IMG/VR virus record: IMGVR_UViG_3300027749_003598 | Location: 1 to 40,377 of that record | Source of the DNA: a virus | Strand: one strand, 5' to 3' | Length of the DNA stretch: 40,377 nucleotides | Shown: in pieces, positions 284 to 33,183 of the stretch | Layout: the number at the start of each line of letters is the position of its first letter | How positions within the stretch are numbered: position 1 is the first letter of the stretch | Made by a program: the position numbers and the translations under genes | The notes under the pieces: model-generated | What the model was told of the DNA's origin: nothing | Seen by the model: only the letters and a program-made list of their open reading frames with translations | Databases searched by the model: none

Positions 284-427
284 TTATTTGGCGACTACGT
301 TATACAATGCAAGTTCTCTTGCATCTTCCCTTGCACTTAATGCAACTTCTTCTGCACTTGGTGTCCATGCTGATGCACAGGCTGCAGCAAATACGGAAAT
401 GACAAATATAAATGATGTTAATTTCAT
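284..427 (-). CDS. Small secreted protein, 47 residues
   Basis: A short gene with a clear signal peptide: MKLTSFIFVISVFAAACASA, then a mature part of about 27 residues that is charged and alanine-rich (AEEVALSAREDARELAL). A strong ribosome site (AAAGGAAAC) precedes the ATG. The start lies one base after the stop codon of the racemase gene, so the two are almost surely translated from one mRNA. The Cys at position 17 could make it a lipoprotein, but AACAS is only a weak lipobox. It is the fifth gene of the amino-acid uptake module; a periplasmic helper role is possible but nothing in the sequence proves it. Confidence 0.68.
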   Translation of the reverse strand: MKLTSFIFVISVFAAACASAWTPSAEEVALSAREDARELALYNVVAK

Positions 428-428
428 G

Positions 429-1127
429 TTAGTTTCCTTTTTTAAATTGTTTAATAGCAGATTTGACTAGACTGTCAATGCTGTTTATTATTGGAGTGTC
501 CTGTACTGAGTCTTCTCTCACACTCAGTGGTATTTCAGTACAGCCCAATACCACTGCTTTTGCACCTCTGTCAATAAGACTATGAATAACTGTTATAAAC
601 ATTGAATGTGCTTCATCTATACAATTGGCTTTGATTAAATCAATTGCAGGTTGTACTAACGTATCCATTTCCTCTTTAGTTGGAACAATACAGTCCCAAC
701 CCAGCTTGTTGAGTCTGTATTGATATAATCCCAATTCCACTGTTGCTTGTGTGCCCATGACTCCGATGGTAGAATTAATCACATGCACATCTCGTAATGC
801 ATCTGCTACACTGTCTACTATATGTATGATTTGTACATTTGATTTACCAAACTCATGAAACCAAAAGTGTGCGGTATTGCATGGAATAACAATTAATTTA
901 CAACCTGCAGATTTTAGTCCCTTAATGCCATCCAGCAAATAGGGCAATGGCTTATCGTCACCGTTGCGCATACTGGTACTGCGGTCCGGAACAGTTGGGT
1001 CACTCCAAAGTACAGTAGGAATATGATCTTGATCGCACGTTGCAGGAGTTTGTGCAACTAGGCGTACCATAAATTCGGCACTGGCGGCAGGCCCCATTCC
1101 ACCTAGTACGCCAAGTTTTTTAATCAT
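429..1127 (-). CDS. Aspartate/glutamate racemase family protein
   Basis: A 232-residue protein of the Asp/Glu racemase superfamily (YgeA/RacX-like), cofactor-independent enzymes that interconvert L- and D-acidic amino acids with two cysteines. Both catalytic Cys regions are present: IPCNTAHFW (Cys83) and VLGCTEIPL (Cys196). The N-terminal LGVLGGMGPAAS is the usual substrate-binding loop. Length matches the family (about 230). The ATG overlaps the TGA of the upstream membrane protein (ATGA at 1124-1127), so translation is coupled. It sits downstream of a periplasmic amino-acid binding protein and an acidic amino-acid symporter, which suggests that the imported substrate is Asp, Glu or their D-forms. 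The exact substrate cannot be read from the sequence. Confidence 0.9.
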   Translation of the reverse strand: MIKKLGVLGGMGPAASAEFMVRLVAQTPATCDQDHIPTVLWSDPTVPDRSTSMRNGDDKPLPYLLDGIKGLKSAGCKLIVIPCNTAHFWFHEFGKSNVQIIHIVDSVADALRDVHVINSTIGVMGTQATVELGLYQYRLNKLGWDCIVPTKEEMDTLVQPAIDLIKANCIDEAHSMFITVIHSLIDRGAKAVVLGCTEIPLSVREDSVQDTPIINSIDSLVKSAIKQFKKGN

Positions 1128-1738
1128 TTTTTGTTGTATAGTAAACCGCTGGCCACAACCATCACAGTTTGTTGGACATCAACAAGTATTTTGTCCACAG
1201 GCACTTCAGTCCAACCTACTGATATTTGTCCAATGAATATGCCGGGCTCTGCCGGCACACTGATACGACACATCCACTTGACACCTTTTTCAACATAGAT
1301 GAACCCCATCAAGCTCTGCGGTTTTTCATAAGTTTGGCATGGTATTTTTCCCGACATCATGGAAATAACATCGTTGTTGTTGTCGTAATTTTTAGTTAGT
1401 AAACCAACATCAGTACCGTACATTGATTTGTCTTGACCGCCTTTGCGTGTAACAAAGTATACTAATTTTCTAGTGTTTAACAAAGTATTAACTTCAAATA
1501 TAGCTATCAGTTCTGCTTGGCTGTTTTTAAGTATAAAGTTAGCGGCTTTTTCGTATTCGCCATTCATGCGCGGTAGTGCTTGCTGTGCTCGATAACTGGC
1601 CATAAAGTTGTCTTTTTCCGTGTAGGCAACCCATCCAACAAAGGTTAGAAAGCACAGTAGTATTACTGTGAATAACCTGAACGGGCTTTCACCAATCCAG
1701 GTTAATAAACTAAGTAGGAACTCTTTCAGTTTGTCCAT
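1124..1738 (-). CDS. Membrane-anchored protein of unknown function
   Basis: A 204-residue protein with one transmembrane segment near residues 20-40 (FRLFTVILLCFLTFVGWVAY). The rest is probably outside the cytoplasm and contains two cysteines (IPCQTYEKP and WMCRISVPAE) that could pair. I do not recognise the domain; the mix of beta-rich stretches hints at a small sensor-like or spanin-like fold. The start has a ribosome site (AAGGAACACG) and overlaps the end of the symporter gene by 29 bases; its stop overlaps the racemase start. It is therefore an integral part of the uptake operon and could be a regulator or accessory subunit of the symporter. Confidence 0.72.
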   Translation of the reverse strand: MDKLKEFLLSLLTWIGESPFRLFTVILLCFLTFVGWVAYTEKDNFMASYRAQQALPRMNGEYEKAANFILKNSQAELIAIFEVNTLLNTRKLVYFVTRKGGQDKSMYGTDVGLLTKNYDNNNDVISMMSGKIPCQTYEKPQSLMGFIYVEKGVKWMCRISVPAEPGIFIGQISVGWTEVPVDKILVDVQQTVMVVASGLLYNKK

Positions 1739-3002
1739 CTACGTGTTCCTTATCACACACAAATGCTGTTACTGCCACATTGCCGTGTACATGGCTTGCT
1801 GTGCGAATCATATCCATTAGTGGATCAACTGCAATCAACAACACCAACACAGCTTCGCTTGGTAATTTCAACAAATCACACACAACTGCCACAGTAGCAA
1901 CTGTGAGGATACCTGTTGTGCCTGCACTTGCTAATCCAGCCAGTATACTACCAAACAACACAACAAATAAGCCAGTAAAGCCTAGTGGAGCATCATAGAT
2001 ATTAGCAATGAACACAGTGGCAATGGCATAGTAAACAATGCTACCAATACGATTAACTGTGAAACTCAGCGGAACAGTTAGTTCAACTCCGCCTTTGTCA
2101 AAATGTAGTTTGTGTAGTGCTTCTTGTGCGTAAGGAATACAAGCAAGACTGCTACGTGAACTGATAGCAACAATTAGTGTTTCTTTAGTTTCACGTATCA
2201 CAGTCATTAGATCCAATCCTGAACGTTTCCAAATTACAATAGTGCCTAACACAACTACTAACAGTCCGCCAACAAACTGTTGGAACACAAAGTCAAACAT
2301 GGTCAAGAATATACCAACTCCTACTTTTCCAACCTGTGCAGAAATCATTGCTAGTAGTGCAATAGGTAGGAAGTAGTTTAGGAATTTAAAGATACTGATG
2401 CTGGCCTGTTGAATACTTTTCAGTACTTCAACCAACATGCGTTGACCTTCTGTTTTTAAGTGTCCAAGGGCAACACCGAAAATCAAACAGAAAATAACAA
2501 TCTTCAAACTTTCACCATTGTTTAGCGTGGCAAAAATATTTTCTGGAATGAACTTCTCAGCCATTTTTCCTGCGCTAACTTCGGCTGCTTTTGGCATCGG
2601 TTCGTGTAGTGTAATACTTAATTCAGTACCGGTATCTTTGTTGTTGACCAAGACACCAAATTCTGTCTTCTTTTCAGGAGTCATGTCAGTGCCAGTGACC
2701 AACACAGTACCTACACCAATAACAGCGGCCAAGAACATACTGCCCACAAAGCCAATGATAATTTTGCGTATCAGGGTCTCACTGCCTTCTTTTTGTAGCA
2801 GTCCTATAATACCAACAAGAATAGTTGCCAACAAGAACGGCAGTACAACTACTTTGAGCAAACTGATATAGACACTACCAATACTGTCAAGACCTATACT
2901 GAATCCTGGAGCATACACGCCACAGAGTATACCTACGATGATTGATCCTAAAATAGTCCAAGGACTAACCAGGAAACTTTTTAAATGTGATGTTGTTATC
3001 AT
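1710..3002 (-). CDS. Dicarboxylate/amino acid:cation symporter (DAACS family)
   Basis: A 430-residue integral membrane protein of the GltP/DctA/EAAT family, which imports Glu, Asp or C4-dicarboxylates with Na+ or H+. Family landmarks are visible in order: several N-terminal hydrophobic helices, the serine-rich hairpin SSRSSLACIP (family usually SSSAATLP), the unwound-helix region PLSFTVNRIGS in the place of NMDGT, a second hairpin LASAGTTGIL, and the substrate helix DPLMDMIRTASHVHGN (family DRxRTxxNVxGD). The changes in the second and last motifs mean that the substrate may differ from Glu or Asp. A ribosome site (AAGGATAAATC) precedes the ATG, nine bases after the binding-protein gene. An SBP next to a DAACS carrier is unusual, since SBPs normally serve ABC or TRAP systems. 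Confidence 0.93.
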   Translation of the reverse strand: MITTSHLKSFLVSPWTILGSIIVGILCGVYAPGFSIGLDSIGSVYISLLKVVVLPFLLATILVGIIGLLQKEGSETLIRKIIIGFVGSMFLAAVIGVGTVLVTGTDMTPEKKTEFGVLVNNKDTGTELSITLHEPMPKAAEVSAGKMAEKFIPENIFATLNNGESLKIVIFCLIFGVALGHLKTEGQRMLVEVLKSIQQASISIFKFLNYFLPIALLAMISAQVGKVGVGIFLTMFDFVFQQFVGGLLVVVLGTIVIWKRSGLDLMTVIRETKETLIVAISSRSSLACIPYAQEALHKLHFDKGGVELTVPLSFTVNRIGSIVYYAIATVFIANIYDAPLGFTGLFVVLFGSILAGLASAGTTGILTVATVAVVCDLLKLPSEAVLVLLIAVDPLMDMIRTASHVHGNVAVTAFVCDKEHVDGQTERVPT

Positions 3003-3011
3003 GATTTATCC

Positions 3012-3836
3012 TTATTTCTTTTCAGCTTTGTAGCGTTCCATTAACTTTTTAGTGTTAATGTCGCTGTATTCATTTTTAACAACATAGTTAACAACGCTTA
3101 ACAATTGTATTGCTCGGGGATTTACTGCTATGGCAATATAATCCACACTGTCACTGATTGTAATAGTTTTGGTGCTAATTGCGGCATCTGGTTTTTCAAA
3201 CGAAATTTTCTTGATTTCAAATTCATCACGATAAGCGGCAGCAATGTCTCCACGAGTGACTTTATCAATAATTACTTCCCACTTTTCTTCAGGAAGGTAC
3301 GTGGCGTTGGGAAAATTAATACGAGCAAATGTATCATAACTGGAGTTCTTGATAAAACTTATTTTACCGTTGAAGTCGCGTATGACTTGATACGTTTCTT
3401 TGCCTTGACTGTTTTGACTTAGCCACAAGCGATTGATAATTAAACTTTGTTTTAGTCTAACATAAGGATCACTAAATCTAACAACTTGTAGTCTAGGACC
3501 AGTAACTGATAATTTGCTGACAGCAATGTCAGCACGGCCGTCACGCACCTGTTCCACCACTTCGGCAAAACTTTCTGCGTCTCTACGGAACTTGACTGGT
3601 ACACCTAACAGTACACCAATTCGTTGTGCAATTTCAACATCAAGACCGTGTAAGTGTTCTTCGTCTCCACTAAAGAATGGAGGAACATCTTTCTTGGTCA
3701 TGGCCACTACTAACACATTGGCTTTTTTAATTGCGGCAATGTCTGCTGGTAAGGGAACTGTTGAAGTTGCTGTTTGTGCAAAGCTGGGGAACACAGCTAA
3801 TACACTGATAGTTAAGGATATAATTAAGTTTTTCAT
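3012..3836 (-). CDS. Periplasmic amino-acid binding protein (SBP family 3)
   Basis: A 274-residue solute-binding protein of the type that delivers polar amino acids to transporters. A signal peptide covers about residues 1-20 (cut after FPSFA). The mature part shows the family pattern: LDVEIAQRIGVLLG, a helix-rich FAEVVEQVRDGRADIAVS, then RFSDPYVRLKQSLIINR at the hinge. No ABC permease or ATPase is near; the next gene, nine bases away, is a DAACS symporter. There is no Shine-Dalgarno sequence, and the late-type promoter at 3841-3849 would place the transcript start exactly on the A of the ATG, so the mRNA is probably leaderless. First gene of the uptake module. Confidence 0.9.
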   Translation of the reverse strand: MKNLIISLTISVLAVFPSFAQTATSTVPLPADIAAIKKANVLVVAMTKKDVPPFFSGDEEHLHGLDVEIAQRIGVLLGVPVKFRRDAESFAEVVEQVRDGRADIAVSKLSVTGPRLQVVRFSDPYVRLKQSLIINRLWLSQNSQGKETYQVIRDFNGKISFIKNSSYDTFARINFPNATYLPEEKWEVIIDKVTRGDIAAAYRDEFEIKKISFEKPDAAISTKTITISDSVDYIAIAVNPRAIQLLSVVNYVVKNEYSDINTKKLMERYKAEKK

Positions 3837-3840
3837 AGTA

Positions 3841-3849
3841 GTATTTATA
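3841..3849 (-). promoter_or_regulatory. Late-type promoter (TATAAATAC), leaderless geometry
   Basis: Perfect T4 late box TATAAATA on the minus strand followed by five bases and then the ATG at 3836. With T4 spacing, transcription would start on that A. Confidence 0.68.
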
Positions 3850-5806: not shown

Positions 5807-5815
5807 ATATTTATG
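5807..5815 (-). promoter_or_regulatory. Late-type promoter (CATAAATAT)
   Basis: Minus-strand CATAAATAT overlapping the stop codon of the bilin reductase gene. It drives the 620-residue protein with an almost absent leader. Confidence 0.55.
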
Positions 5816-6491
5816 CTATTTCAGGGAACAGACAATTTTGTATGAAAACTTGCACATCTTCTTCACTAAGCCCTAAACTAACCATTACACGCGGTGTATG
5901 TGGGTTACATTTTTGATTTTGACAGTAGTAGTTTTGCTGTTCTGTAGTATCTGCGGCGGTGTTGTTAGTTTCACCCACTGTGGCCAAATAATGTGCCAAT
6001 GTAGTGTGCGCCATCTCAGTAATTTGATCCAGTTCTGCTTCATCGCTAACGTTGCCTGCGGCCACCATACTGGGGCTGAATATGTTGGTTGCCCATTCTG
6101 GAAGTGGCCGGGGTTTACGCCATTCTAGTTTGGCCACTTCATCTGCAAACCACTCCATCATAGGATGATTAGGATCTCCAGCTTTGCTATAATCATGAAA
6201 ACAGCCAGTCATTTTGTTTTTACCGGCCACTACATCAAAGCCGTAAATTGGTGCTGGGTTATGTGTATGTGGAAAGATGCAACAATGCATCATCCATAAT
6301 CCTTTAGTTTCGCGAGCATCAACCACGTCAACGTGAGCACGGCGATACTGATCACTAGTCCATACCCTATTAATCCAGCCAGGTTGATTAAAACGATCCA
6401 TTCCAGGCTCGAAAATTTCAGTGCCAGTGCGTTCAAAGTTTTCTTCCAATAAGTGCTGAATTTCTATTAACGTATCCCAAACTTTACTCAT
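5811..6491 (-). CDS. Ferredoxin-dependent bilin reductase (PcyA/PcyX/PebS family)
   Basis: This enzyme family reduces biliverdin IXalpha to phycobilins with electrons from ferredoxin. Numbering from a TTG at 6506, the motifs are: YRRAHVD (Asp60 where PcyA has its active-site Glu76), WMMHCCIFP (His74, PcyA His88), YGFDVVAG (Asp91, PcyA Asp105), IFSPSM, and the C-terminal YCQNQKCNPHTPRVM. His and Asp are kept while Glu is changed to Asp, so reduction of the exovinyl group may be lost and a phycoerythrobilin-type product is possible. I chose the ATG at 6491 (MSKVWDTL), eight bases inside the heme oxygenase stop; a TTG at 6506 behind GGAGA is the alternative. Two-gene coupling with heme oxygenase gives a heme-to-bilin route. 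The phage protein PcyX is the closest known parallel. Confidence 0.87.
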   Translation of the reverse strand: MSKVWDTLIEIQHLLEENFERTGTEIFEPGMDRFNQPGWINRVWTSDQYRRAHVDVVDARETKGLWMMHCCIFPHTHNPAPIYGFDVVAGKNKMTGCFHDYSKAGDPNHPMMEWFADEVAKLEWRKPRPLPEWATNIFSPSMVAAGNVSDEAELDQITEMAHTTLAHYLATVGETNNTAADTTEQQNYYCQNQKCNPHTPRVMVSLGLSEEDVQVFIQNCLFPEIA

Positions 6492-7032
6492 CTTTATACT
6501 CAACAATCTCCATCATCTGTTGGAAAAATCTTGTGGCAAAATCAAAACAAACTTTGGCTTCGTCTGCCATGTCGTCGCTTATACGTTCTCTAATAGCTAG
6601 TTTAAGCGTTTCAGGATCTTCAAATTGATACATGGTGCCAGAACCTGGAACACGTTTTGCAATCATCTGCCCGCCTGCAAGATCTCCCATGTGACGCACA
6701 TACACATGTGCCATGAGTCTCTTTGGATCATCTTTAATGCTCATGATGTAATCCATATATTCTTTCACTATGGGAAGTATTTCTGCATCTTCCTCAGCAG
6801 GCCACAATTCTTTATAGTCCGCATTGATTTTTGGTGCTCTACGAATATCAGGTAGTCCTGCTAACAAACCCTTGGCCATAGCACATACTTCCAGGATCTC
6901 GTATTGCGGATGTTGATTTTTTAAATAGGTAGCATACAGTTTAGGATTTATTGACCCCGAAAACAGTATTTTTACAAATTCTTGTCGTTCGGCATTTGTG
7001 TGTGCTTCTTTGGTTAAATCGCGTAGGCTCAT
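6484..7032 (-). CDS. Heme oxygenase (biliverdin-forming)
   Basis: A 182-residue HO-1/HemO-type enzyme that opens heme to biliverdin, CO and iron using reduced ferredoxin or a similar donor. The proximal heme ligand region is LRDLTKEAHTNAE (His11), and the distal helix signature is HMGDLAGGQM (GDLAGGQ at 116-122; usual form GDLSGGQ). Slightly shorter than plant and cyanobacterial enzymes (about 230), and in the range of bacterial HemO. Its ATG overlaps the clpS stop (ATGA), and its stop overlaps the bilin reductase start, so the three genes are translationally linked. Biliverdin made here would be the substrate of the next gene product. Confidence 0.93.
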   Translation of the reverse strand: MSLRDLTKEAHTNAERQEFVKILFSGSINPKLYATYLKNQHPQYEILEVCAMAKGLLAGLPDIRRAPKINADYKELWPAEEDAEILPIVKEYMDYIMSIKDDPKRLMAHVYVRHMGDLAGGQMIAKRVPGSGTMYQFEDPETLKLAIRERISDDMADEAKVCFDFATRFFQQMMEIVEYKDE

Positions 7033-15098: not shown

Positions 15099-15425
15099 TT
15101 ATATTCTAAAGGATTCGCCACAACCACATTCGCCCTTGGAATTAGGATTGGCAAATTCAAATCCTTCATTGAGTCCATTGCGAACCCAATCCATTGTTAG
15201 TCCGTTTAAGTAGACAAGTGACTTTTCATCCACTAATACTACAAAATCATTTTGGGCAAAGTTGATTACTCCAACTTCATGTTCGTAGCTATCTACATAT
15301 TCTAGAACATATGCTAGTCCGCTACATCCGGTGGTTCTAACACCTATGCGTATTCCAACGCCTTTACCACGACGTTCTAAAGTTTGTTTAATTTTTTTAC
15401 TTGCCGTGTCGGTTATATTAATCAT
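15099..15425 (-). CDS. A-type iron-sulfur carrier (IscA/ErpA/SufA family)
   Basis: A 108-residue carrier that receives an Fe-S cluster from a scaffold and passes it to target enzymes. The three conserved cysteines are present: RTTGCSGLAYV (Cys34) and GECGCGESF (Cys100, Cys102). Length and the start (INITDTASKKI) fit the family. It overlaps the halogenase gene by eight bases and stands in the same operon as IscU, so the phage brings both a scaffold and a carrier but no cysteine desulfurase in this window. Likely clients include a ferredoxin that would feed the bilin reductase. Confidence 0.94.
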   Translation of the reverse strand: MINITDTASKKIKQTLERRGKGVGIRIGVRTTGCSGLAYVLEYVDSYEHEVGVINFAQNDFVVLVDEKSLVYLNGLTMDWVRNGLNEGFEFANPNSKGECGCGESFRI

Positions 15426-16563
15426 TTATTAAATTATTTAATCTTGGATATAAATCTAAGTTTCCTAAATTTAATTTTAAATTCCAATATTCCCACATCG
15501 CATATTGAATTTCAAATGCAGGGACACTTGGATCGATAATTTTTAATAACTCTCTAAACTTAGGATCTTCTGCTTTTGATAATATATGATTGTATGCCGA
15601 TAGTCTAGCATGTTTCCAAAATGCAGTATTATATTTGTTTGAACTAAAATAATGCAATAAAATTATTGTTTCAATTTCTGAAACTAGTTGGAGGAAATAA
15701 TTATTAATTGCTTTGACCGGGACATTTTTATTCCATTGATCATAGGCAAATTGCTGAACTTTAGTAGAAAGCCATAATGGAGTAGTTTCCATGGGTTCTA
15801 AAAACATACTTGCACTACCATTGTATACTATTCGTTTAGTAAAATTTTCTTTACGAAAGTAATTTTTCCAAGAAAATGTGCCAGTATTCTCGCTAGGTAT
15901 TAATTGGTATTCTTCAAAGACATTAACAACATCGTCTTTGATGTCATCGACATTATTAATATCTGTATTATACACATACCCAACAGCACACCTGTTTTGC
16001 AACGGTACACAAAACACCCACCCATATGGTCTAGCAATAGTCAGTGTTTCATTAAACTTAGGGTAATCCCAGTAACACTGAGTTATATAAGCGCCGTTTA
16101 CTGGGATTGAACTAGTAGTCGAATACTCATCAAAATTGGTTGGCCTGCCTGAACAATCAATTACAAAGTCAGAATCTATATCTTCGTTTGCAATATTTTT
16201 ATCAATAAGTTTTATTCTTGGATTAGTCGATGCATAGTTAACTATATACTCTTGTAGTTTAACAGCATTAAAATGATATCCTACAGCAGGTGGTGCAAAA
16301 TAATTTAAAATAGGTTTTTCTGAAAACCCAATTTTTTTAACACCTGTTTTAAAAGTACCATCTATTAAATGCAAATCACTATGTGTAAATCCAAATAAAT
16401 CGTGAAGCTGTTGTGTAAATCCAACAAAGCCGCCTTCACCTACTGGTTGCGGCTTTATATTACTGTCAAAGTACCAGTCTATTTCCCAATCGGTGTATTT
16501 TAGAAAATGTCCCACATTCATGCAACCTGCGGTGCCTTTTCCAACTATGGCTACTTTTTTCAT
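15418..16563 (-). CDS. Flavin-dependent halogenase-like protein (tryptophan halogenase family)
   Basis: A 381-residue FAD enzyme related to PrnA/RebH. The N-terminal FAD motif is VGKGTAGCMN (G8, G10, G13). GTFKTGVKK holds Lys72 at the place of the catalytic lysine (Lys79 of RebH/PrnA) that activates HOCl. A later FAD motif is DFVIDCSGR (133-140). The signature WxWxIP is altered to GWVFCVP (181-187), with Phe for the second Trp, and the protein is shorter than classical members (about 530), so the C-terminal substrate domain is reduced. T4-like cyanophages carry similar genes of unknown substrate. It lies between iscU and the A-type carrier, overlapping both by a few bases. Confidence 0.88.
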   Translation of the reverse strand: MKKVAIVGKGTAGCMNVGHFLKYTDWEIDWYFDSNIKPQPVGEGGFVGFTQQLHDLFGFTHSDLHLIDGTFKTGVKKIGFSEKPILNYFAPPAVGYHFNAVKLQEYIVNYASTNPRIKLIDKNIANEDIDSDFVIDCSGRPTNFDEYSTTSSIPVNGAYITQCYWDYPKFNETLTIARPYGWVFCVPLQNRCAVGYVYNTDINNVDDIKDDVVNVFEEYQLIPSENTGTFSWKNYFRKENFTKRIVYNGSASMFLEPMETTPLWLSTKVQQFAYDQWNKNVPVKAINNYFLQLVSEIETIILLHYFSSNKYNTAFWKHARLSAYNHILSKAEDPKFRELLKIIDPSVPAFEIQYAMWEYWNLKLNLGNLDLYPRLNNLIND

Positions 16564-16940
16564 TTGTGTTTTTCTTTATAGTCTGCTATTGCGGCTTTGA
16601 TAGCATCTTCTGCTAGAATTGAACAATGTATCTTAACTGGAGGTAATGCTAGTTCTTCGGCGATTTGGGAGTTTTTAAGGTTACTAGCATCATCAATATG
16701 CATACCCTTAACCCACTCTGTAACCAACGACGAACTGGCGATTGCCGAACCGCATCCATATGTCTTGAAACGAGCATCTCTAATAATACCATCTGAGTCT
16801 ACCTTTATTTGTAATTTCATTACATCGCCGCAAGCAGGGGCTCCAACCATTCCAGTTCCTATACCATCTTCATCTTTGGCAAAAGAACCTACATTGCGGG
16901 GGTTTTCGTAATGATCAATTACTTTATCCGAATATGCCAT
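16560..16940 (-). CDS. iscU: Iron-sulfur cluster scaffold IscU
   Basis: A 126-residue full-length IscU. All three cluster-ligand cysteines are kept: GAPACGDVM (Cys37, with Asp39), KTYGCGSAIASSS (Cys63) and KIHCSILAED (Cys106). The LPPVK motif (99-103) recognised by the HscA chaperone is present. It accepts sulfur from host IscS and builds [2Fe-2S] clusters. The phage has DnaK, which could partly replace HscA. Start overlaps the carbamoyltransferase stop; ribosome site AAGGTAA. Operon: carbamoyltransferase, iscU, halogenase, A-type carrier. Confidence 0.96.
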   Translation of the reverse strand: MAYSDKVIDHYENPRNVGSFAKDEDGIGTGMVGAPACGDVMKLQIKVDSDGIIRDARFKTYGCGSAIASSSLVTEWVKGMHIDDASNLKNSQIAEELALPPVKIHCSILAEDAIKAAIADYKEKHK

Positions 16941-18580
16941 TATGAGTTACCTTTTGTTATTAGTTTATTTACCTCGGGAAGATATAGGTATTTGATTCCA
17001 GATCTCCTTAAAGTACTCAATGCGTCGTCAAGTGTTTCTACCAAAGGCTCTCCGCCTAAATTAAAACTAGTATTAAACAAAATTGGTACGCCAGTCTGTT
17101 TATTGAATTCAGCTATTAAATTATAAAAATGAAAATTCTGATTGTTGTTAACTGTTTGTACTCGACATGTGCCGTCTACGTGTACAATACTTGGTATTTT
17201 TTCTTTCTTATTTTCCAAGACATCCACAGCAAACATCATAAATGGGCTACTGTTTATGCCACGCATGTCAAACCACTCATAAACGTGTTCTTCCAAAATA
17301 GTTCCGGCAAACGGTCTATACCATTCCCGACCCTTTACACGATTAACTATATCTTTACCTGTTTGTATCCTAGGGTCAAATAAAATACTTCGATTCCCTA
17401 GTGCTCGAGGTCCTGCTTCGGATCCTCCTTGGAATATAGCTACTATATTTTCAGATACTAATAAATTAACTATATCCAAATAATCAACAGTTTGCTCTGT
17501 TTCATTTGATTCTAATTTGTAATTGTACGTAGGAGATGGTCCTAAACAAAAAGATAGTTGCTTGTGTTGAGTTGTATTGTTGTTAGCACTGTGGTAAGCT
17601 AGTTTGGCTATTCCTATACTTTGTCCGCCATCATGTGCAGGTGGATCTATGAATATATTAACATCATTAGGAATATGTTTCAAATATTCATAGTTGGCCA
17701 CACAATTCAATGCATATCCGCCCGATATTACTAAATTTTTAGAGTTAGATATTCTAAGTGCGGTTAGTATTAAATCAGTGGCTACTGATTGAGTAGACTG
17801 TTGTACAGCATAACAAAGATTAGCCGCATTGTATTGCGCTATATTATCAAGAAACGGTGCAGCATACATGGCATTATTTGGTCTAAATAACTGTTTGTTA
17901 GGTGTTTTTTGACCGTTGACAGTTACATATATTTGTGGAATAGTTTCATCAAGTTCCCCGTAAGAACTTAATCCCATAGCTTTGCCACACTCTAAATTGG
18001 TATGGCCTAGGGAAATACTTAACGCAGAGTATATACTGGCAATACCCTGTTCATTAGAAAAGACTTTTTCTTCATGAAATTTAGTAAGCTGATTATAATT
18101 ATTGCCAAACTTTTTATATACAGGTGTAAACGTCTTTGGAAATTCTGCTAGATATATACTTTCAACTTCATATCCGGCTTTGCCAGTTTGATCTAATTCA
18201 ATATATTTTCCAGCTGCATCTATTACTACACACACCGCTTGGTCAAATCCAGAACTGTAAAATCCGCTTGTTGCGTGATATATGTGGTGCTCGCCGTTAT
18301 TAAACACTTGCGCATGGTTATCAATTAACCCCAGTTTTAAAGCAAATTTAATAAACGGTCCAGCTTCATTTGTAGTTTCTGAAGATCCTACAGATATAGC
18401 TAGACAATCAATTTTATTTGTGTACTCGAGGATTTTAAGTAATCCTAAGAACGGACTATCATCATATTTTTTTCGACTTAGTCTTTCTTCTTCTACATAA
18501 AAAACAATAGTACCATTCTTAAGTAAACAAGTAGATGCGTTATGCCCTGTACTTATACCTGCAATCCAGTTGTCACGCAT
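16940..18580 (-). CDS. Carbamoyltransferase (NodU/TobZ family)
   Basis: A 546-residue O-carbamoyltransferase of the type that moves the carbamoyl group from carbamoyl phosphate to a hydroxyl through carbamoyl-AMP. The N-terminal Kae1/YrdC-like part shows ISTGHNASTCLL, EEERLSRKK, GEHHIYHATSGFY (metal-binding His) and ISGGYALNCVANY. The C-terminal part shows GGSEAGPRALGNRSI, EWYRPFAG and ILFNTSFNLGGEPLV. Substrate is unknown; NodU-type enzymes decorate sugars and phage members have been linked to nucleotide or surface modification. The gene begins six bases after the secreted protein's stop and has a weak ribosome site. Confidence 0.93.
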   Translation of the reverse strand: MRDNWIAGISTGHNASTCLLKNGTIVFYVEEERLSRKKYDDSPFLGLLKILEYTNKIDCLAISVGSSETTNEAGPFIKFALKLGLIDNHAQVFNNGEHHIYHATSGFYSSGFDQAVCVVIDAAGKYIELDQTGKAGYEVESIYLAEFPKTFTPVYKKFGNNYNQLTKFHEEKVFSNEQGIASIYSALSISLGHTNLECGKAMGLSSYGELDETIPQIYVTVNGQKTPNKQLFRPNNAMYAAPFLDNIAQYNAANLCYAVQQSTQSVATDLILTALRISNSKNLVISGGYALNCVANYEYLKHIPNDVNIFIDPPAHDGGQSIGIAKLAYHSANNNTTQHKQLSFCLGPSPTYNYKLESNETEQTVDYLDIVNLLVSENIVAIFQGGSEAGPRALGNRSILFDPRIQTGKDIVNRVKGREWYRPFAGTILEEHVYEWFDMRGINSSPFMMFAVDVLENKKEKIPSIVHVDGTCRVQTVNNNQNFHFYNLIAEFNKQTGVPILFNTSFNLGGEPLVETLDDALSTLRRSGIKYLYLPEVNKLITKGNS

Positions 18581-30820: not shown

Positions 30821-31603
30821 TTACACCTTGCTGTATTTTAATAACACTGAATGATCTGTTTGATTCGGATGCCAATCAGCTCGCATAAAGTCCCACATGT
30901 GTTTTGCACTGCAACGGATCAATCCGCTTTGTTTGTCAAACAACATGGTCCAAGCATCTTTGGCTGTCTGCCACTTCCACAATTGTTTATCGGCATGCAA
31001 AAACATTATGGTATGTTTGCACATGTAATATGTATAATACATTAAAACGTATAGCATTGCAAGTCTTCTGGTAGATGTTTTGCCACCAATTGCATTCCAA
31101 ACATCCATGGCCACTGCTTTGTGTTCTATCTCCTCGATGCCATGCCAACGCCACACTTGTTCAAAGTGTGGATGCATTTTCTTAAGACTAGTCCTGTACT
31201 TGAGGAACAATTCAGCATTAGTAGCTGTGATATGTTCAATACAAATGGTTGCTGCCAGACAAGCACGATTGCCCCAATTGGGTCTAATCTTGGTCCAGAA
31301 TACATTCATGTCGTCTTCGACCCGTTTGCTTGGCAAGCCTTGACGTTCCATCCATTCATTGTACTGTATGTGTAAATGCCGGTGCCAGTTTTCCTGTTTG
31401 ATAAACTCTTGTATTTCAGCAAGTTGTTGTGGATCAGTAAGACGATCTCGATATGGCTTTATACTGTCAATAAAGAAACGTTCACCATCAGGGAAAGTTA
31501 CGCTGAGTGCATTGAGGAAATGTGTTTTAAAGGGACTGTGATCATTCCAGTGTTGTGGAAGTTCTTGTGTCCAATCTAGTTTGAGTGGGTGGCTTGTAAA
31601 CAT
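30821..31603 (-). CDS. Ferritin-like diiron enzyme (metal-dependent hydrolase family, PF10118-like)
   Basis: A 260-residue protein of the family annotated as predicted metal-dependent hydrolase, which has a four-helix diiron core. Ligand motifs in order: FPDGERFFIDSIKPYRD (Glu41), FIKQENWHRHLH (E71-x-x-H74), TICIEHITAT (Glu123) and WHGIEEIEHKAVAMDVW (E157, E160-H161). This carboxylate-histidine pattern is that of oxygen-using diiron enzymes. With acyl carrier protein as the next gene, oxidation or desaturation of an acyl-ACP is the attractive guess. No ribosome site; the late box 31607-31615 is four bases before the ATG, so the mRNA may be leaderless. Confidence 0.86.
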   Translation of the reverse strand: MFTSHPLKLDWTQELPQHWNDHSPFKTHFLNALSVTFPDGERFFIDSIKPYRDRLTDPQQLAEIQEFIKQENWHRHLHIQYNEWMERQGLPSKRVEDDMNVFWTKIRPNWGNRACLAATICIEHITATNAELFLKYRTSLKKMHPHFEQVWRWHGIEEIEHKAVAMDVWNAIGGKTSTRRLAMLYVLMYYTYYMCKHTIMFLHADKQLWKWQTAKDAWTMLFDKQSGLIRCSAKHMWDFMRADWHPNQTDHSVLLKYSKV

Positions 31604-31620: not shown

Positions 31621-33183
31621 TTACAATCCTGAATATCCGCTGTGATACGGATTGTACAAGTACTTGTTGGCCGCTCCCAACAATGCTGTTTGATTAGTCC
31701 AAGCATTAGTACTAGTTGTTGGATTGTATAATTGATTAGTTTTAGCTTGTGTAGTAATCCAACTTTTAACCTGTGCTGGAGTTGCTGTTGTATTGCCCTG
31801 TAGGTATAATGCAACTACTCCAGTGACATTTGGAGTTGCCATACTAGTTCCTGAAATCTTACAAGCGTTGTAGGTATTTTGTTGTTCTGTACCAAACAAA
31901 TATTGAAATGGTGTAAAACTACTTTGATTACTAGTGCTGCTTGTGATGTCAGTGCCTGGACTAATAATGTCACAACCTGGACCACGTTCGCTGTAATTGG
32001 CCAATTGTTCCAAGTAATTGGTTTTATTGCGAACAGTTGCACTATCACTCGCACTCACACGAATTGTTCCAATAGGGCTTCCGCCGCGATGATAGTATAT
32101 AGGCGTATCAGCTGGTGCAATGGCGCTGGAAAAACTATGAGTGTAATAATTATTATAATCTCGCCCGCCATCTATATCAATCTTGTGCCCATAATTTCCA
32201 GCAGCTGTGACATAAACAATACCAGCGGCTTGACCTTGTGTTATACGCATATCAGTAGCTGGATCCGTTACACAATGCTCCGGCCCTACCATACCCTTAC
32301 TAGGCAAATATTGTGAACCACTAGAATAACTAGTAGTGGAACCTTCGTAAACAATCTTTTTAATATTCTTTTGACTTAGACGAAATGGATTGTCGCTATA
32401 ATACCAAACGTAGCCCCAGCTCATGTTAACCACAGTTGGTCGACGACTTCCACCTTGTGCAAATTTTTTAAGATGCCAGGCACGCAATATATCAAATGCT
32501 GTGTAAGGATCAAAACTCTTTGTACCGCCTGGAGAATTGTCAAATATGCGTAGGCTATAAATGTTAGCGCCTTTAGCAGCACCGTAAGTCTTGCCTGCGG
32601 ATATTCCAGCCACATGAGTACCGTGCGAGCCTTCTCCAGAGATACTGTAATCATAAAATCCAGTAGGCATTGTTCCTGCTACACCTGCATCTTGGAACCA
32701 GTTAATTTCTTTTAGTCTTGAACCAAACTCTGGATGTCCGGTTTGTACACCGTCATCCATTATAACAATGTCAACACCTGTGCCATCGCGGTTGGCAGCA
32801 TAAGTTGTACCTGTGGTATTTTCTGTATTGGCTAATGTAGCACGACGAAGGCCCCAGTTGACATTATACAAATCTGGATTGATAGCACGACGAGCAAAAT
32901 TGCCGGCTGTGTTATTATAGGCACGGGGAGTTTGTGTTACATCTGGTGCCACATGCGGACGTGCAACATGCGGACGTGCGGCGCTAGTAGGTAGTTTGTA
33001 GTGTATGTGTGCTACCCGAGGATCATTGGCCAGTTTGGCCGCTTCCTCGTTGGTCAGCATGTAGTGATAAGTTAGTTCGTTTAAAGGAACTAGATCCGCT
33101 ACTTCAGTGCCATCGGCCATTAGCTCAGCATGCAAACTATCTATATCTGCTTCGCTATGGGCAACAATAACACATTCTTTCAT
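31621..33183 (-). CDS. Subtilisin-like serine protease (S8 family)
   Basis: A 520-residue subtilase. Catalytic residues are visible: Asp143 in IVIMDDGVQTGHPE, His187 in EGSHGTHVAGI and Ser447 in ISGTSMATPNVTG, with oxyanion Asn330 in VTAAGN. The N-terminal 70 residues look like an I9-type inhibitor or prodomain (MKECVIVAHSEADIDSLHAE and on), followed by a duplicated ARPHV-ARPHV linker. There is no signal peptide, so the enzyme stays in the cytoplasm, travels in the virion, or is freed by lysis. The active-site set is complete. It follows a 69-residue gene by a one-base overlap. Possible roles are virion maturation or digestion of host surface protein. Confidence 0.94.
   Translation of the reverse strand: MKECVIVAHSEADIDSLHAELMADGTEVADLVPLNELTYHYMLTNEEAAKLANDPRVAHIHYKLPTSAARPHVARPHVAPDVTQTPRAYNNTAGNFARRAINPDLYNVNWGLRRATLANTENTTGTTYAANRDGTGVDIVIMDDGVQTGHPEFGSRLKEINWFQDAGVAGTMPTGFYDYSISGEGSHGTHVAGISAGKTYGAAKGANIYSLRIFDNSPGGTKSFDPYTAFDILRAWHLKKFAQGGSRRPTVVNMSWGYVWYYSDNPFRLSQKNIKKIVYEGSTTSYSSGSQYLPSKGMVGPEHCVTDPATDMRITQGQAAGIVYVTAAGNYGHKIDIDGGRDYNNYYTHSFSSAIAPADTPIYYHRGGSPIGTIRVSASDSATVRNKTNYLEQLANYSERGPGCDIISPGTDITSSTSNQSSFTPFQYLFGTEQQNTYNACKISGTSMATPNVTGVVALYLQGNTTATPAQVKSWITTQAKTNQLYNPTTSTNAWTNQTALLGAANKYLYNPYHSGYSGL

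Follow-up and report, generated by a model that had tools for sequence, protein, structure and literature searches.

Before TAXI-GltS of Bordetella pertussis was described, the use of a soluble substrate-binding protein (SBP) by secondary carriers was known only for the TRAP and TTT families, according to the authors of that work (PMC12344293). TAXI-GltS provides a precedent for an SBP that serves an elevator carrier outside TRAP, in that gene linkage there associates a periplasmic SBP with a glutamate carrier of the elevator type that is not a TRAP carrier (PMC12344293). The phage cassette described here has the same kind of pairing with different parts: a TAXI SBP and the ESS-family GltS in B. 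pertussis, compared with a family-3 SBP and a DAACS (SDF) carrier in the phage. It also resembles TRAP transporters in its layout of SBP, ATP-independent elevator carrier and small membrane protein, but has no homology to DctM/DctQ or to TRAP-type SBPs; with an SDF carrier and a family-3 SBP, and neither DctM/DctQ nor a DctP or TAXI SBP, it was not classed as TRAP. An ABC amino-acid importer was likewise rejected, the SBP being accompanied by no permease or ATPase genes among the five genes of the locus, and none being seen among the recurrent neighbours listed. A literature search of partial coverage found no description of an SBP-SDF transporter or of the phage cassette.

The DNA analysed is an IMG/VR virus record of 40,377 bp, and the whole of it is referred to as the window. 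Five minus-strand open reading frames lie at one end, all of them as the first-pass annotation had described: an SBP of 274 residues with an N-terminal signal peptide (3012..3836; Pfam SBP_bac_3, E = 1.4e-16, 60.9 bits), an elevator-type carrier of 430 residues (1710..3002; SDF, E = 6.8e-66, 223 bits against a gathering score of 27.9, residues 15-415), a 204-residue membrane protein that we call TM204 (1124..1738), an Asp/Glu-superfamily racemase of 232 residues (429..1127; Asp_Glu_race, E = 3.7e-39) and a predicted secreted peptide of 47 residues (284..427). No Pfam family was found for TM204 or the peptide; a weak match of TM204 and its relatives to DUF4383 (best E = 0.004) was taken as chance. 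The carrier and TM204 genes overlap by 29 nt and the TM204 and racemase genes by 4 nt. Among the PHROGs, the four larger genes are present only as families without known function. tRNA genes were searched for and none found, and sigma-70 promoters and terminators were no more frequent than in shuffled sequence.

What might such a transporter carry? R115 and D204 of the SBP are invariant in 23 aligned sequences and also in Gemmobacter and Paraburkholderia homologues; in SBPs of family 3, the residues at these positions bind the alpha-carboxylate and alpha-amino group of the ligand. A structure model of the protein matches amino-acid SBPs, including the Glu-bound 5eyf. The carrier shares only 20-25% identity with GltPh, GltTk and E. 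coli GltP, but has in common with them its fold, its family and the substrate residues, its D397, R400 and T401 corresponding to GltPh D394, R397 and T398; these three are kept in all phage members and in the closest bacterial relatives. The altered substrate motifs seen at first reading are real: TM7 has NRIGS where GltPh has NMDGT, and in TM8, which contains GN, an asparagine stands in place of D405. Relative to GltPh, the phage protein replaces M311 by Arg, D312 by an aliphatic residue, N401 by His and D405 by Asn (N408), the last of these shared with the H+-coupled GltP, and differs further in having an SBP partner. The Na+ sites of the Na+-coupled members (TM7 NMDGT, TM8 D405) are thus replaced in the phage carriers by NRIGS and N408, and Na+ coupling is doubtful. 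Membership of the DAACS/SDF family stands all the same, because these sites do not define the family as a whole.

In the racemase, both catalytic cysteines are present as originally noted, C83 and C196 being invariant in 18 aligned sequences; R49 and K166 are also kept and correspond to R48 and K164 of PhAspR. The protein shares the cysteine pair with CuyB and Asp racemases and scores 222 bits against the NCBIfam cysteate racemase (CuyB) model, the range being 208-222 bits and the cut-off 190; the phage relatives tested and the Gemmobacter racemase also exceed the cut-off. It differs from those enzymes in being phage-borne, and its substrate is putative. An acidic alpha-amino acid, or a sulfonate analogue, would fit the conserved residues of SBP, carrier and racemase alike.

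Scans of IMG/VR with carrier and SBP queries returned 34, 79, 77 and 80 loci in largely overlapping sets, on contigs of 4-525 kb. The gene order recurs in about 80 viral contigs from many samples, several of them 150-525 kb long, with phage flanks; the phages that bear the cassette are large lake phages. Its core is three genes in constant order, SBP, carrier and TM204. Where loci were long enough to tell, the SBP lay upstream of the carrier in 72 of 72 and TM204 directly downstream in 70 of 70, the latter count not representing 70 independent events, as contigs share lineages, and a TM204-less cassette far below 60% identity being one that searches by carrier or SBP would miss. The linkage of carrier and TM204 persists at carrier identities as low as 61% and in varied genome neighbourhoods, and translational overlaps mostly accompany it. 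The racemase is optional, occurring within 2.9 kb in 49 of 61, and the most distant cassettes (L140-L144, carrier 61-66%) have the first three genes without it. The peptide is less frequent still: it is a real gene, 74-79% identical in several contigs, but optional and variable in position, lying between SBP and carrier in others. The proposed path of uptake and racemisation is not the conserved unit, because racemase and peptide are accessory and missing from many cassettes. In one relative (L016:12762-13583), a homologue (51%) of the window ORF at 30821-31603 sits between TM204 and racemase.

The grouping of the cassette genes is far above chance, and the next commonest neighbours accompany only 20 of 70 distinct cassettes. 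Purifying selection acts on each of the four main genes, the median dN/dS among 21 non-redundant cassettes being 0.08 for the SBP, 0.09 for the carrier, 0.10 for TM204 and 0.15 for the racemase, with synonymous sites near saturation. Evolutionary distances of SBP and carrier are correlated (r = 0.79), which together with their 72 of 72 linkage upholds the original view that the two belong together; pairs involving TM204 or the racemase give r = 0.34-0.46. The cassette is exchanged as a block, since in L055/L132 most upstream flank genes of the window are shared at 92-96% and the carrier at just 69%, and since neighbourhoods vary. Two cassettes in opposite orientation (L037 and L042) lie on one 524,565-bp contig that may be a chimeric assembly. 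Among the isolate phages of INPHARED, none carries the system and none has a close match to carrier, SBP or racemase; the annotated transporter and racemase hits, at 20-39% identity, are bacterial-type genes in bacterial-looking records and were set aside. Several such "phage" records (AFYI01, AGRM01, CAKLQF/CAKLQH) resemble bacterial chromosome contigs.

The idea that no such system exists outside phages did not survive. Scans of 84,980 species genomes by conserved patterns for carrier and TM204 gave none, and one phage contig within a MAG; because such scans miss relatives at about 35% identity, which a plasmid search then found, a phage-only system was rejected. Gemmobacter aquarius, P. phymatum and Paraburkholderia sp. 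PGU19 have plasmid-borne operons of SBP, carrier, racemase and second carrier, and in Cupriavidus P-10 the SBP and carrier genes adjoin; the best four plasmid matches of the carrier (33-35%) are in the same four records as those of the Gemmobacter SBP. Identities between phage and bacterial operon proteins are 31-38% for the carrier, 33-44% for the SBP and 29-34% for the racemase. Two Verrucomicrobiota genomes have more distant SBP-carrier pairs. In phage and bacterial sets alike the SBP gene comes first and the carrier gene second, with a racemase from a single clade after them; shared too are the TM7 Arg and TM8 D-x3-D-x2-R-T of the carrier and the RDEFE of the SBP. The bacterial operons differ by an additional carrier, the phage cassette by a late promoter and by TM204, which lies between carrier and racemase; the holin-like gene is absent from all three bacterial operons examined. 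On present evidence, judged from these homologues, the SBP-carrier pair is an uncharacterised bacterial system and TM204 a phage addition. In P. phymatum the genes (Bphy_5989-5992) lie inside a T6SS-b cluster, similar clusters occur in other Burkholderiales, and the authors who described them found the symporters intriguing and suggested dicarboxylate sensing (PMC8356804). In our map of pBPHY01 (L377), the operon is placed between VgrG-side genes and TssJ/TssK-like genes.

Expression of the phage genes appears to be late. The first-pass annotation had placed all five under one perfect late box, and the octamer TATAAATA, a late promoter box of T4 type, is indeed exact at 3842..3849 on the minus strand, beginning 13 nt before the SBP start codon, and is the sole box upstream of the cassette. 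Taken alone it is within chance, with 5 occurrences in the window against 3.5 expected; what gives it weight is its recurrence in relatives, where 30 of 62 distinct sequences have it no more than 100 nt upstream of the SBP, 18 at -13 or -15, compared with none within the same distance of the other genes (carrier 0/48, TM204 0/49, racemase 0/36). Since the octamer precedes only the SBP among the cassette genes, and genes for a T4-like DNA polymerase, clamp loader and sliding clamp stand beside the cassette of relative L135, the reading as one late operon is well founded. The box lies 5-7 nt from the start codon, beginning 13-15 nt before it in the 18 relatives, which suggests that the SBP-led transcript is almost leaderless.

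TM204 is not the orphan subunit that it had seemed. It is a member of a large phage family, and relatives without SBP or carrier were found in 44 and 210 stretches in two scans. Many of these stand-alone genes follow tail-fibre-like genes and precede 3TM holin and endolysin genes in the gene maps, with PF11351/phrog_3427 holin, endolysin and phage lysozyme as profile-confirmed neighbours; the T4 t gene likewise follows tail-fibre genes. A relation to holin T was proposed before any structures were compared. In the AlphaFold2 model (pLDDT 87), TM204 has an N-terminal amphipathic helix, one TM helix and a periplasmic GAF-like domain; C134 and C157 are invariant. The first Foldseek match was the periplasmic domain of T4 holin T (6psk, E = 5e-5), and the first VIA-align match was again holin T (6px4, Z = 12.7, rmsd 3.3 over 134 residues), nearly tied with GAF domains at Z = 12.2. 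Family-to-family hhalign gave 93.8% over 191 columns with a score of 53.5, whereas shuffling the columns 60 times never gave more than 20.4 and the reversed profile scored 15.2; limited to the periplasmic domain it was weaker, at 29.2, with one of 60 shuffles reaching 30.5. BLASTP and single-sequence hhalign of TM204 against T4 t gave nothing usable, the relation being seen by family profiles only.

We conclude from profiles and model that TM204 is very probably a distant relative of holin T. With T, and with T5-type class III holins, it shares the amphipathic N-terminal helix and single TM, both reported to be important in T (PMC12162936), a C-terminal periplasmic domain of a fold that GAF domains match almost as well, similarity of profiles over the whole length and, through its stand-alone relatives, a place in lysis cassettes. 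It differs in its low identity (~15%), in the placement of its cysteines, in its linkage to a transporter and in the presence of a further holin-like gene elsewhere in the phage. This relation is no proof of hole formation, and holin activity is putative. It is also unlikely that the copy in the cassette is the sole holin, since 11 of 18 large records contain a separate GTA_holin_3TM-like gene and GH19 endolysin matches are present too; in G002, G003, G005, G006 and G008 the 3TM-holin-like gene is ~1-4 kb from the GH19 match. A second TM204 of stand-alone type accompanies the cassette copy in L063, L068/L233, G002 and G003. In L224 (4744-5010) and L234 (4648-4989), a small secreted protein of 89-114 residues without a family match directly follows a stand-alone TM204, its size and place suggesting an RI-like antiholin.

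Other genes in these phages give some view of their setting. At 1-205 on the minus strand, the window has the first part of a secreted repeat protein (VINQGGYDSKSLVDTNSTS...) that the contig end truncates and that has a late-like box to itself. Relatives show it grouped with a secreted protein of ~616 residues and one of ~206 residues, near 18-20 of 70 cassettes. An upstream gene for a 620-residue protein has no match in PHROG or INPHARED. Further minus-strand genes encode a "ferredoxin oxidoreductase" (phrog_7278) overlapping an ORF that by eye is heme-oxygenase-like (5811-7032), possibly a pair for bilin synthesis, the phage not resembling a cyanophage; a tryptophan halogenase (phrog_2928) and a Nol/NodU-like carbamoyltransferase (phrog_1601) at 15418-18580; and a subtilisin-like protease (phrog_9158, phrog_3677) at 31621-33183. 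One relative has an outer-membrane porin just after the racemase (L014:12644-13549), and another phage a TctC-type SBP 8 kb upstream (L007:1047-2033); these two genes hint at betaproteobacteria, perhaps Burkholderiales, as hosts and at additional genes for uptake.

How, then, might the cassette work? On balance, and with modest confidence, we favour a secondary transporter for an acidic amino acid that depends on a binding protein, was captured by phages, is expressed late and is coupled to a holin-like protein. The periplasmic SBP would bind an alpha-amino acid, either Asp or Glu or a sulfonate analogue, for example cysteate, in L or D form, and hand it to an elevator carrier that has the DAACS fold and belongs to a subfamily linked to SBPs and altered in its cation sites; the racemase, where present, would interconvert L and D forms in the cytoplasm; and TM204 would most likely contact the SBP or the carrier through its periplasmic GAF-like domain and couple its state to the membrane. 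TM204 might thereby dock the SBP, modulate transport or put lysis under the control of the ligand. The sequence-based part of this account comprises the identity, order and linkage of the genes, purifying selection on them, the late promoter, conserved ligand residues, the relation to holin T and the bacterial homologues. Transport, binding and racemase function are predicted, and we infer the hand-over, the substrate, the direction, the racemase substrate and the role of the holin-like protein. Because TM204 is found in every testable phage cassette and in none of the three bacterial operons, the phage version would seem to do more than uptake. A late lytic operon would bring in acidic amino acids just before lysis, which counts against the reading as uptake, and recombination is freer for TM204 (r = 0.34 with the carrier), the behaviour expected of a loose partner.

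Ligand-gated lysis is a possible, if less probable, reading, in which SBP and carrier act as a transceptor that senses an acidic or D-amino acid in the periplasm, for instance from host wall turnover or lysing neighbours, and signal to the T-holin-like protein as antiholin RI does to holin T, with nutrient import secondary. TM204 is related to a holin whose periplasmic domain is bound by RI (PMC11413866). The late box, the 70 of 70 linkage, the lysis genes beside stand-alone TM204 and the sensing suggested for the T6SS-borne bacterial homologue (PMC8356804) all point the same way. A full carrier with its transport residues, plus a racemase, exceeds a sensor's needs, however, and TM204 need not be the holin in phages with a separate 3TM-holin-like gene, which in five records is some 1-4 kb from a match to GH19 endolysin. 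Rather unlikely, in our estimate, is a timing device gated by an amino acid outside the cell or in the periplasm, in which SBP and elevator carrier act as receptor and TM204 as output: lysis would be advanced or delayed by acidic or D-amino acids, such as those from lysing neighbours, and the racemase would clear the signal.

TM204 could instead be only an accessory transporter subunit, a holin-T fold re-used as a membrane anchor or docking site that serves the SBP much as the small Q subunit does in TRAP systems, with no role in lysis. We consider this unlikely: the three-part layout, the strict linkage and the invariant, disulfide-capable cysteines favour it, but the three bacterial operons manage without TM204, whose relatives occur in lysis cassettes without a carrier. 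DctQ, moreover, has four TM helices and a different fold. Independent recombination of TM204 and racemase relative to the SBP-carrier pair, and the many phages with TM204 alone, would be expected if the two parts did unrelated jobs and shared only a late promoter; linkage kept down to 61% carrier identity, with overlapping genes in diverse surroundings, makes this very improbable. Assembly artefact or bacterial contamination, the objection foreseen at the outset, has in its favour that no isolate phage has the set; recurrence in about 80 contigs, some of several hundred kilobases, from many samples, with phage flanks, a phage-type late promoter and no close relative by two pattern scans of 84,980 species genomes save one phage contig, leaves it a negligible probability, and we regard it as ruled out.

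Finally, a family-3 SBP working with a DAACS carrier would, if real, constitute a further class of SBP-using secondary carriers, in the family of the human glutamate transporters and distributed across phages and bacteria. Through its link with the cassette, TM204 also gives a way into PHROG 31287, a large phage family to which no function has so far been given. If the union of TM204, SBP and carrier is functional, it would tie nutrient binding to the machinery that times the bursting of the host.
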